Origin: Agathobacter sp. | GTDB taxonomy: Bacteria; Bacillota; Clostridia; Lachnospirales; Lachnospiraceae | Assembly: GCA_022769125.1 (NCBI GenBank) | Contig: JALEKN010000062.1 | Coordinates: 1-64,000, forward strand | Direction of reading: 5' to 3' | DNA: 64,000 bases | Part shown: positions 18,627 to 22,437 of the stretch, piece after piece | Numbering within the stretch: the first letter of the stretch is position 1 | Layout of the letters: each line of letters starts with the position of its first letter | The notes under the pieces: generated by a model | Database searches by the model: none | What the model was told of the DNA's origin: nothing | Seen by the model: only the letters and a program-made list of their open reading frames with translations | Program-made: the position numbers and the translations under genes

Positions 18627-19916
18627 TTACAATATGACAGTAAAGCGAATGGAATGTCCATCCTCGCTTTTGGCGGTGATCCTGCCCTTGTGCGCAAGGA
18701 CGATCGCCTTTACAACGGAAAGTCCGATCCCATGACCGCCGGTTGCACTGTTTCTGGAAGCATCCGGGCGGTAAAAACGCTCAAAAAGTTCATCATGTCT
18801 GCCCGGTTCAATGCTATCAACCGTATTCCAGATGGTGAGCACCTTATTCTTGCCGGAGACAGAAAAGGAAAGACGGACCGCTCCATTTTCCGAAGCATAT
18901 TTCATAGCATTGTCAAGAAGGAGTGAGACGAGCTGACGGATCGTAGACTCATCGCCGGTATAGCTGACGTTCGGCTCAATCTCACACACGAAAGTACGAC
19001 CGGATGCAGCAGCGACTGCTTCAAATGGCTGTGCCGCTTCCGAGATGGCATCGGACAAGGAGAAATCAAGCATGATGAGCTTGGTGGCTTCCTCGTCCAT
19101 GCGTGACAGAAAGACCAATTTGTTGGTCAGATCGGTAAGACGCTTGATCTGATTGCGGATACTGGTTGTCCACTCGCTCTCGCCGTTTTCCATCTCAAGA
19201 ACTTCCGTGTTGGCATCGATGATGGTAAGTGGAGTCTTGATCTCATGGCTTGCGTCCGTGATGAAGTGCTTCTGCTTCTCATAGCTTTCTGCAATCGGGC
19301 GGACGATCAGCTTGGAAAAAAATACGACCAGAAGAAAGACTAACAGAAGTCCAATCAGACTGATTGACACGCTGGCAGTCAGAAAAGACCGGAATGTATC
19401 GGTCTCTCTGCGGCAGTCGAGAAATATGTACATGGTCTCTCCAGCGGTGTCTGTTGTGGCTGAAGTGTAACGATAGTTGCTGATGTAGCCGGAGGTTTTG
19501 CCCTTTTCAAACAAAGTCATGGCATAGGAGATGGCATCATCGGAGCTGATCGCTGCAATATTGTCGGTCGAGGAATCAACGACCGTACCGGAGGTATCCA
19601 GCGTTACTGTAAAATACCGTGTGTCGAAAGCACTCTCCTCCGATATGCCGTGGAGCGTCAGCTCCTTCGGTGTGGGCGCGTCGTCCATTGCAGGCTTTTC
19701 CGGCGGAACGTCATCCGCGGAGGGAGAATTGGCAGGTCCCATAAAATCCTGCGGAAATACGCCATCGTTGCCGGCAAGGATCGTAAGCCGCATATCGAGT
19801 GAACACTTGATATTGTTGTAGTTGATGATGTTTACGCTTCCGATGATCAGAAGCAGAACCATAAAGATAGAGAGCATTGCAATCGCAATGAAGCGATGCT
19901 GTAATTTTTTAATCAT
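18627..19916 (-). CDS. sensor histidine kinase
   Basis: HEIKTPLTIIDANTEVLEME H-box, HATPase motifs GIGLSVVKAI. Confidence 0.93.
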   Translation of the reverse strand: MIKKLQHRFIAIAMLSIFMVLLLIIGSVNIINYNNIKCSLDMRLTILAGNDGVFPQDFMGPANSPSADDVPPEKPAMDDAPTPKELTLHGISEESAFDTRYFTVTLDTSGTVVDSSTDNIAAISSDDAISYAMTLFEKGKTSGYISNYRYTSATTDTAGETMYIFLDCRRETDTFRSFLTASVSISLIGLLLVFLLVVFFSKLIVRPIAESYEKQKHFITDASHEIKTPLTIIDANTEVLEMENGESEWTTSIRNQIKRLTDLTNKLVFLSRMDEEATKLIMLDFSLSDAISEAAQPFEAVAAASGRTFVCEIEPNVSYTGDESTIRQLVSLLLDNAMKYASENGAVRLSFSVSGKNKVLTIWNTVDSIEPGRHDELFERFYRPDASRNSATGGHGIGLSVVKAIVLAHKGRITAKSEDGHSIRFTVIL

Positions 19917-20586
19917 GAAGTTCCTCCAATGTATAGCCGAGTCCGCGTACTGCCTTGATCCCGATGTTCGCCTGCAGCGCAGTCAGCTTTTTCCTAAGAT
20001 AAGAGATGTATACCCATACGATATTCTGTTCAGCATCACTGTCATAGCCCCAGATCTTGTCCATAAACTGTTCTGTGGAAATAACCTGTCCGGGATTGGC
20101 AAGAAGCATCTCAAGCATCTGAAATTCTTTGCTGGCAAGCCGCAGGCTCTCGGTCTTGGAGGAGAGCATATAGGTGCCGCGGTCGAGCGTGATGTTGCCG
20201 TAGGAAAGTGTCGTATCCGCTGCGGTCGTCTGACGTCTTGTCATGGCGCGGAGACGGGCAAGCAGCTCCTTCATGGAGAAAGGCTTGGTCAGATAGTCAT
20301 CGGCACCGCAGTCCAGTCCGAGCACACGGTCATCAATCTCCGCCTTGGCAGTCAGCATCAGGATCGGGATCTGGTTGCCGCTTGCGCGCACCTTTTTTAA
20401 TACGGTGATCCCATCCATTTTCGGTATCATGATATCTAAGATCGCACCGTCATAATTGCCCATATTGATATAGTCGAGTGCATCCTGCCCATTGTATACC
20501 GCATCCACGGAATAATTGTTGTGGAGCAGTACGGTGACAAGTGCGTGGGAAAGCTCTTTCTCATCTTCTGCAAGTAATAAACGCAT
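19909..20586 (-). CDS. OmpR-family response regulator
   Basis: MRLLLAEDEKELSHALV..., GADDYLTKPFSMKELLARLRAM, winged-helix C-terminus. Confidence 0.94.
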   Translation of the reverse strand: MRLLLAEDEKELSHALVTVLLHNNYSVDAVYNGQDALDYINMGNYDGAILDIMIPKMDGITVLKKVRASGNQIPILMLTAKAEIDDRVLGLDCGADDYLTKPFSMKELLARLRAMTRRQTTAADTTLSYGNITLDRGTYMLSSKTESLRLASKEFQMLEMLLANPGQVISTEQFMDKIWGYDSDAEQNIVWVYISYLRKKLTALQANIGIKAVRGLGYTLEELHD

Positions 20587-20733: not shown

Positions 20734-20762
20734 TTGACAGTTATTTCTTTTCGATTTAAAAT
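20734..20762 (+). promoter_or_regulatory. sigma-A-type promoter of the mgtE leader
   Basis: TTGACA (20734-20739) - 17 bp - TAAAAT (20757-20762). Confidence 0.8.
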
Positions 20763-20826
20763 GAACGAGGCGCATGGAAATAAAGAAGTGTGCGCATAAT
20801 AAATTTAACGTAGCAGAGGTGACAAT

Positions 20827-20913
20827 ATGGACAGTTGCGATAGTCATGGGCGAAGTAGATACCGCGATGGAGGATATGGAAATATGACTGGACGCAACCG
20901 TATTGCTTGTTAG
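20827..20913 (+). CDS. candidate leader peptide (uORF) MDSCDSHGRSRYRDGGYGNMTGRNRIAC
   Basis: ATG preceded by AGAGGTGACAAT (SD); 28 codons then TAG; inside the mgtE leader. Confidence 0.55.
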   Translation: MDSCDSHGRSRYRDGGYGNMTGRNRIAC

Positions 20914-20945
20914 TGTGCGCGTTACTTCATAGAGGATATGTTTTC

Positions 20946-20974
20946 CACCGCGGGGATCTTACGCGGTGTTTTTT
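20946..20974 (+). terminator. intrinsic terminator within the mgtE leader (attenuator candidate)
   Basis: CACCGCG GGGATCTTA CGCGGTG TTTTTT. Confidence 0.85.
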
Positions 20975-21039
20975 AATGCCATAAGGTAAGCCCTAGGCGT
21001 AATACTACGACACCGTACCAAAAGAAAGGAGACGAAGAA

Positions 21040-22437
21040 GTGGAAAACGAAATCTTAACCGAACAGAACTATGTAGAAGAATTGCTGGCATTGATCCGGA
21101 GTGATGCGACAGATGAGCAGATCCGCGAGACTCTGGATGAATACCATGAGAATGATATAGCGGGCGCTTTCGAGCAGTTGAACGAGAGCGAACGTAAGAA
21201 AATGTACCGGATATTAACGCCGGAACAGTTGTCTGAGATTTTTGCCTACATTGAGGATGCCGGTGAGCATATTGCTGAGATGCCTGCCGAGATGGCTGCG
21301 GAAGTCATCGGTAACATGGACTCTGACGAGGCGGTTGAAGTCCTTGAGGATATGGATGATGAGGCTCAGAAGAAAAAGCTTGTCAGCTTGCTCGATGAGG
21401 AACACAGCGCAGATATCCGTTTGATCCAGTCCTACGATGAGGACCAGATCGGTAGCCGCATGACTACTAATTTTATCGAGATCAAGCGGACACTTACTGT
21501 AAAGCAGGCAATGAGAGAGCTGGTGGCACAGGCGGAGGACAATGACAATATCTCAATCCTGTATGTTACCAACGAGGACGGATCATTTTACGGAGCGTTG
21601 GACTTAAAAGACCTGATCGTTGCGCGCAACAATGTGGATCTGGAGGATCTGATCAGTACCTCCTTCCCATACGTACGTGACCATGAGCTGATCAGCGATT
21701 GTATTGAGCGAATCAAGGACTATGCGGAGGATTCCATCCCTGTATTGGACGATAACAACCAGATCCTCGGTGTAATCACCGCGCAGGACATTGTAGAGGT
21801 TGTCGATGATGAGATGGGCGATGACTACGCAAAGCTGGCTGGTTTGATTGCGGAGGAGGATATCAAGGAGCCGCTTCGGGAGAGCATCAAGAAGAGACTT
21901 CCATGGCTGATCGCGCTACTGCTTTTAGGGCTGGTCGTATCAAGTATCGTCGGAATTTTTGAGGGAGTTGTCTCCCAGGTAGCAATCATCGTCTGTTTCC
22001 AATCACTGATTCTGGATATGGCGGGAAATGTCGGAACACAGTCTCTGGCTGTGACAATCCGTGTGCTTATGGATGAGCAGCTTAAAGCAGGACAGAAGAT
22101 AAAGCTCGCGCTGAAGGAAATGCGTGTCGGATTATGCAATGGCGCGCTGCTGGGGGTCTTATCCTTTGTGTTTGTTGGATTATACATTTTCCTTCTGAAG
22201 GGCTATCCGGCGGGAACGGCGTTTGTGATTTCCGGATGCGTTGGATTTTCCCTTATGATCGCGATGCTGATCGCAAGTCTTGTAGGAACCATCGTGCCGA
22301 TGTTCTTCCACAAGTTTGGTGTTGATCCGGCGGTTGCATCCGGTCCGCTTATTACAACGATCAATGATATGATTGCGGTTGTTACTTATTACGGACTTGC
22401 ATGGCTGTTTTTGATTCATTTGCTACAGATCGCATAA
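21040..22437 (+). CDS. mgtE: magnesium transporter MgtE (GTG start)
   Basis: MgtE_N, CBS pair and C-terminal membrane domain (DMAGNVGTQSLAVTIRVL). Confidence 0.95.
   Translation: MENEILTEQNYVEELLALIRSDATDEQIRETLDEYHENDIAGAFEQLNESERKKMYRILTPEQLSEIFAYIEDAGEHIAEMPAEMAAEVIGNMDSDEAVEVLEDMDDEAQKKKLVSLLDEEHSADIRLIQSYDEDQIGSRMTTNFIEIKRTLTVKQAMRELVAQAEDNDNISILYVTNEDGSFYGALDLKDLIVARNNVDLEDLISTSFPYVRDHELISDCIERIKDYAEDSIPVLDDNNQILGVITAQDIVEVVDDEMGDDYAKLAGLIAEEDIKEPLRESIKKRLPWLIALLLLGLVVSSIVGIFEGVVSQVAIIVCFQSLILDMAGNVGTQSLAVTIRVLMDEQLKAGQKIKLALKEMRVGLCNGALLGVLSFVFVGLYIFLLKGYPAGTAFVISGCVGFSLMIAMLIASLVGTIVPMFFHKFGVDPAVASGPLITTINDMIAVVTYYGLAWLFLIHLLQIA

Follow-up and report, generated by a model that had tools for sequence, protein, structure and literature searches.

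In the window (the whole stretch of 64,000 nucleotides from Agathobacter sp. that was analysed), the leader of the Mg2+ transporter gene mgtE is probably a leader-peptide transcription attenuator. Expression of mgtE would be turned on when a ribosome is held in the first ~7 codons of a short upstream open reading frame (uORF), probably at low Mg2+. Together, the uORF and two alternative hairpins look like a so far undescribed switch by which the ribosome would set Mg2+ uptake on or off. Control by Mg2+ through the translation of a leader peptide is known from enterobacteria (MgtL).

All elements of this leader lie on the forward strand. A sigma-70-type promoter, TTGACA-17-TAAAAT (11 of 12 consensus matches), occupies positions 20734-20762, and the uORF starts ~65 bases downstream of its -10 hexamer. 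The Shine-Dalgarno (SD) sequence AGAGGTGA (20815-20822; consensus over the leaders, GGAGGTGA) is followed by the leader-peptide uORF (20827-20913, assigned from sequence and comparison), which ends 126 bases upstream of the GTG start of mgtE. The latter (21040-22437, 465 aa) matched TIGR00400 (E 1.1e-89) and the Pfam families MgtE_N, CBS and MgtE. An intrinsic terminator, T2 (CACCGCG, 9-nt loop, CGCGGTG, TTTTTT), is located at 20946-20974; it escaped a standard terminator scan because the loops in that scan were limited to 3-8 nt. An earlier note, made from the letters alone, had described the promoter, a leader terminator, a repeat AGTGTGCGC and a uORF with AGAGGTGACAAT and an ATG at 20827, 28 codons (MDSCDSHGRSRYRDGGYGNMTGRNRIAC) and TAG at 20911-20913. 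Promoter and terminator are present, the two copies of the repeat are found at 20787-20795 and 20912-20920, and the reading of the uORF was exact throughout. The repeat is also the 3' arm of an upstream hairpin (GCGCAT/GTGCGC, 20770-20795) and recurs over the uORF stop, and the GCGCAT 5' arm could pair with either copy. On the reverse strand, histidine kinase and response-regulator genes, as read from ORF translations, are divergent from mgtE (18627-20586).

A search with the mgtE protein gave 80 loci in other species, 54 of which had an SD-preceded MDSCDSxGRS-like uORF upstream under a strict rule. Over all 127 loci collected, an SD-preceded uORF with the shared N-terminus (MDSCDSxGRS and variants) was present before mgtE in 101. 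These uORF-bearing loci span Lachnospiraceae, Ruminococcaceae and Erysipelotrichaceae, and since named carriers exist, such as Anaerosporobacter faecicola, Kineothrix sp., Blautia sp., Ruminococcus bromii and Floccifex porci, the uORF is not a MAG artefact. When 348 family genomes were searched with a DNA pattern independent of mgtE, 19 of the 22 matches were uORFs immediately upstream of mgtE, and the other three look like chance matches; even in this search the uORF thus appears tied specifically to mgtE. In the genus of the window, 17 of 63 genomes contain this mgtE and 15 of these 17 have the uORF, 12 of them recognised by model R1 and three as further variants (MTDDSCGRS, MTDDSYGQS and MPDDGHSPKPEPIGRS), while no uORF was found in the other two. 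The R1 scan, with stricter filters by which weak matches can be lost, revealed no clear copy in the remaining 46 genomes of the genus, and across the wider phylum it returned only unconvincing matches distant from mgtE. A promoter agreeing with the consensus at 10 or more of 12 positions preceded 35 of 68 uORFs (from 70 non-redundant leaders), compared with 3 of 68 in shuffles. Judged by its recurrence upstream of mgtE and by the lack of stops in its frame (below), the uORF is far beyond chance. In two loci (L128 and L133), MDS-like uORFs (MDSDGKCRSS and MDSSCDSRMISS) with weak model scores (E 0.002-0.005 per genome) were seen near uppP and a distant mgtE. In another locus (L007, 1305-1469), a TwoAYGGAY RNA (RF01731, 91.5 bits) precedes the uORF by a few hundred bases.

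Translation of the uORF is well supported by several features of the aligned leaders. Frame 0 was free of stops over codons 13-20 in 69 of the 70 non-redundant leaders, against 43.3 expected from composition (p 1e-13), and no excess was found in frame 1 (43/70) or frame 2 (28/70). Among 101 uORFs the start codon was ATG in 85, GTG in 11 and TTG in five, the search having admitted these three codons only. Substitutions in codons 2-12 favoured similar residues (mean BLOSUM62 0.91, with a maximum of 0.73 in 300 column permutations), the synonymous fraction over the same codons was 0.247 vs 0.138 +/- 0.037 under permutation, and length changes between the start and the conserved CGA comprised whole codons. 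In this way the codon-level conservation that the earlier note had proposed to look for in related mgtE leaders was observed, with start, SD and frame kept and synonymous substitutions in codons 2-12 above permutations. The outcomes named there as refuting, i.e. frameshifts or stops in homologues or a purely RNA type of covariation, were not seen except in one MAG sequence (L016), which has a one-base frameshift inside the conserved block.

Conservation of the peptide is confined to codons 2-10 (DSCDSHGRS in the window, 20830-20856). The conserved part, comprising the first ~10 codons, can be written D-S-x-D-S-x-G-R-S and uses AGT, GGG and CGA codons; downstream of it both sequence and length vary (15 to 52 codons, the uORF of L033 having 15 codons only). 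In the YRRRG group, peptide-level selection past codon 12 was not significant. The Arg/Gly/Tyr-rich peptide of which the earlier note spoke is therefore not the essential feature: codons 11-28, which encode it, show little conservation at the peptide level and serve RNA pairing.

The RNA structures of the leader were examined in the 70 leaders by a pairing test, in which the segments of each leader were matched with its own or with those of other leaders (5000 permutations). Pairing of the region from -14 to +20 with nt 45-115, designated P1, had a mean energy of -25.1 kcal/mol for matched vs -18.5 for mismatched segments (z -17), and the antiterminator (nt 28-65 against the stretch from nt 70 to mgtE) gave -24.8 vs -18.7 kcal/mol (z -15). 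Neither matched energy was attained in any of the 5000 permutations, and reversed-sequence and upstream pairing controls were null (z -0.6 to -1.5). A sliding pairing profile against dinucleotide-shuffled targets had two main peaks, one at nt -11 to +9, which is the uORF initiation region, and the other at nt 31-54 (maximum 37-48); the conserved codons 4-10 had no pairing signal in this profile. A pairing between GAAGU of the conserved block and a downstream ACUUC, spotted by eye in a few leaders, had no support in the profile and was dropped.

In the window, the 5' arm of P1 (CAATATG, 20823-20829) lies over the start codon and its 3' arm (CGTATTG) is at 20899-20905, with local extensions that join 20834-20839 to 20893-20898 and 20842-20847 to 20884-20889. 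The major hairpin described earlier at 20834-20898 does exist, although its arms (GTTGCG/CGCAAC and AGTCAT/ATGACT) are the local extension, and what relatives share is the position of the start-codon helix CAATATG/CGTATTG. The antiterminator strand falls within the uORF (20855-20878, codons 10-18; core CCGCGATGG at 20862-20870) and pairs in the pairing test with 20937-20962, which overlaps the 5' arm of T2. Antiterminator and U-tailed terminator are mutually exclusive, since the partner strand of the former overlaps the terminator's 5' arm. In L029, for example, the antiterminator consists of TGCACGATGGAAAAT and GTTTTCCATCGTGTG, and the terminator of CATCGTGTGCA and TGCATACGATG followed by TTTTTTT. 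The strands of P1 and the antiterminator follow the order a-b-a'-b'. Leader terminators were identified by an antiterminator-linked search; taking free hairpins before T-runs as terminators yielded many wrong hairpins and was abandoned. Taken together, comparison of the leaders gives good support to an architecture of uORF, P1, antiterminator and T2. Two further features were noticed: TGCCC directly follows the terminator U-run in 22 of 70 leaders (ATGCC in the window, 20976-20980), and in seven leaders (L004, L084, L097 and L124-L127) a short U-rich tract follows the 3' arm of P1, where P1 itself may terminate transcription ahead of T2 and at the same time mask the start of the uORF.

The effect of ribosome position was computed with an equilibrium folding model and an assumed ribosome footprint per codon for 15 leaders, most of them selected because their antiterminator had been recognised. 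T2 formed in the ribosome-free leader of the window with a probability of 0.93; a ribosome placed at any of codons 1-7 brought this to ~0, one at codon 8 to 0.81 and one at codon 10 or beyond to 0.99. Averaged over the 15 leaders, the switch was clear: the probability was 0.66 in the ribosome-free state, lay at 0.28-0.36 for P-sites at codons 1-6 and rose to 0.74 at codon 8 and to 0.95 from codon 10 onwards, so that the modelled change from antiterminator to terminator occurs as the P-site passes codons 7-9. Individual leaders departed from this behaviour: in L124 and L085 the antiterminator was favoured even without a ribosome, L029 retained T2 at all ribosome positions, and in the window a ribosome near the stop codon would likewise favour the antiterminator.

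It is proposed that, with no ribosome on the leader, P1 would form between the start-codon region and the 3' part of the uORF, leaving T2 free to form and mgtE off. Once a ribosome has initiated and its P-site is held within about the first seven codons (MDSCDSH), P1 would be blocked and codons ~11-17 could pair with the 5' arm of T2, in which case T2 would be unable to form and mgtE would be on. A ribosome that has moved past codons 8-9 would cover the antiterminator strand, T2 would form and mgtE would again be off. The holding step may be pausing or drop-off during synthesis of the acidic N-terminus encoded with AGU, GGG and CGA, and by analogy with MgtL of Salmonella and E. coli it would be favoured at low Mg2+, so that Mg2+ shortage would raise MgtE. 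Of this model, the coding of the uORF, the helices P1 and antiterminator, the terminator T2 and the conserved state of codons 2-10 are shown by comparison, and the ribosome-position switch is a computed result only. As modelled, the logic of the switch is that of a classical attenuator: translation of the uORF is indicated by comparison alone (stop-freedom, start codons and substitutions), an antiterminator whose strand lies in the uORF excludes an intrinsic terminator, and ribosome position alters the fold in equilibrium folding with a modelled footprint. The idea of ribosome-coupled attenuation of mgtE in the earlier note thus stands with regard to the coding signal, the retained start, SD and frame, the covarying antiterminator and terminator and the position-dependent fold, but not with regard to the Arg/Gly/Tyr-rich part of the peptide.

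What the first codons sense is the point on which the main alternative differs. Within codons 2-10, AGT accounts for 83% of Ser codons, CGA for 82% of Arg and GGG for 46% of Gly, compared with 14%, 7.5% and 9% in mgtE. This strong bias is unexplained by a purely nascent-chain mechanism, and since the block is unpaired, pairing does not account for it either. The same attenuator might instead sense the speed of decoding at AGU, GGG and CGA (tRNA supply or wobble), with Mg2+ acting on the stability of codon-anticodon pairs or on the overall rate of translation, or with another signal being read. The codon bias, the unpaired state of the block and the retention of CGA in frame despite gains and losses of codons before it agree with such a reading. 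On the other hand, some groups have Gln or Pro in place of CGA, 19 of 70 leaders lack an early CGA, and the strong conservation of Asp 2 and Asp 5 is not predicted by decoding alone, the third positions of Asp and Cys codons in the block being free. We consider this alternative unlikely. The acidic pair is itself not universal, as the second Asp is absent in some variants (L195 and L202).

It is more doubtful still that the leader is a pseudoknot-type Mg2+ riboswitch with an incidental ORF, in which P1 and the antiterminator would be interlocked and the unpaired block would be the binding core. The a-b-a'-b' order and the conservation of the unpaired block at the nucleotide level, including its codon-biased positions, would suit such a structure; the SD, the alternation of ATG, GTG and TTG, a lack of stops confined to frame 0, length changes by whole codons and substitutions that preserve the amino acid speak against it. 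The constant linkage to mgtE and the conservation of the first ten residues could also be expected of a functional microprotein (e.g. one acting on MgtE) whose level is merely set by the RNA structures. This seems very improbable, considering that only about ten residues are conserved, that the remainder varies freely both in length (15 to 52 codons) and in sequence, and that this strand is taken up by antiterminator pairing. Finally, a 28-codon ORF alone is not rare, but a chance ORF within an ordinary terminator leader is refuted by the conservation, coding and covariation tests and has a negligible probability.

The attenuator favoured here resembles both MgtL and the amino-acid attenuators in its working and is a member of neither, because it has no EPDP motif, its predicted readout is intrinsic and not of the Rho type, and it has no run of codons for a single amino acid. 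MgtL acts through an EttA-dependent, intrinsic destabilization of the ribosome: when Mg2+ is low, pausing or drop-off occurs while EPDP is being made, and EttA relieves this (PMC11282234). Like the MgtL uORF of mgtA in Salmonella and E. coli, the uORF of the window is short, is located directly upstream of a Mg2+ transporter gene (TIGR00400; the uORF being conserved) and has acidic residues within its first five codons, and in both cases translation of the uORF is proposed as the off-signal at high Mg2+ (PMC11282234). In contrast to MgtL, the peptide is unrelated and has few prolines: it begins M-D-S-C-D-S, with Asp at positions 2 and 5 and without EPDP, and most members have no proline motif. 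From the sequence, a U-tailed intrinsic terminator excluding an antiterminator would take the place of Rho-dependent termination, and the target is MgtE in Clostridia, not the MgtA ATPase of enterobacteria. With the amino-acid attenuators (trp type and ilvB, a uORF of the latter having been described in Corynebacterium; PMC11109978) the leader shares the selection of antiterminator or intrinsic terminator by ribosome position and a uORF that spans the antiterminator strand. It differs in that the control region is an N-terminal block ahead of this strand and the target an ion transporter; no run of regulated-amino-acid codons was found in codons 2-10. The mgtE motif (SRC-65-1), the only one of this name in the literature found, also lies upstream of mgtE. 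It is a riboswitch candidate with a reported distribution limited to Thioalkalivibrio; no uORF was described for it, and its model takes in the SD and AUG of mgtE's own ORF, at the base of P4 (PMC11109978). No family in Rfam, Pfam or NCBIfam matched the uORF or the leader element, and no mgtE leader peptide in Firmicutes was found in the open-access literature, to which the search was confined. With Rfam matches admitted up to E 1, the only one was a weak flpD match on the opposite strand and ~1.1 kb away, which was taken as chance.

The M-box (ykoK, RF00380) likewise governs Mg2+ transporter genes via transcription termination, but it is absent from the window: no match above the gathering score was found in the leader or its genome, nor in any of the 63 genomes of the genus. 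Of 35 genomes examined for it, almost all of which carry the uORF, 34 lacked it, and 28 of 250 family genomes had one; an anticorrelation of M-box and uORF by genome (1/35 vs 28/250) is suggestive only. Elsewhere, M-boxes occur in tandem with uORFs that we call MD-type from the likeness of their N-terminus, a name that does not assert strict homology to the window peptide. All nine M-boxes preceding a Mg2+-translocating P-type ATPase (L199, L202, L203, L204, L209, L210, L213, L215 and L216; ATPase identity by NCBIfam in three plus L210, by motif in the rest) had an SD-preceded MD-type uORF between the M-box and the gene. These uORFs begin with M-D, M-E or M-T-D, several contain CGA-AGY, and examples include MDAGSNGAGSNGRSR, VDHGRSYNRS and MDHSRSCNWN. 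Among ATPase loci without an M-box, an MD-type uORF was found in about two cases (L231 and L240), and such a uORF also occurs at some of the M-box loci that belong to a second MgtE class. In L195, an M-box is followed by the uORF LDSSPGRSRQNNIIGYGSLMLTDITSV (LDSSPGRSRQ, ~1740) and an mgtE 29% identical to that of the window; visual inspection suggests pairing of GGATATGGTAGT, a strand of this uORF, with ACTGTCGTATCC in a terminator arm. Across fourteen tandem leaders the matched z was -5.4 for P1 and -6.1 for the antiterminator; as the reversed P1 control itself reached -3.2, P1 is weaker there. In five loci (L205, L206, L207, L220 and L222, perhaps also L211), another tiny SD-preceded ORF, approximately (M/V)PVITRR, was seen 55-70 nt upstream of an M-box-controlled second-class mgtE.

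We infer Mg2+ as the signal of the mgtE uORF from the identity of the gene, the lack of an M-box in nearly all carriers and the precedent of MgtL, and this is supported by the position of related MD-type uORFs between M-box riboswitches and other Mg2+ transporters. More tentatively, and with somewhat less than even confidence, MD-type leader peptides might constitute an undescribed family and a common sensor of Mg2+ (or ribosome state) in Clostridia, serving at least three Mg2+ transporter classes, alone or behind an M-box. Their sensing part would be an acidic N-terminus, encoded by wobble-read or rare AGU, GGG and CGA, and would act over the first ~8 codons.

The conserved, unpaired and codon-specific block raises the question of how the first eight codons report Mg2+ status, and the tandem M-box and uORF leaders offer a natural two-input device for asking what each sensor reads. 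If the mgtE leader is indeed an attenuator, it would explain Mg2+ sensing in Clostridia that have no M-box at this mgtE. A widespread Firmicute counterpart of MgtL with an intrinsic-terminator readout, if true, would point to more than one origin of the principle.
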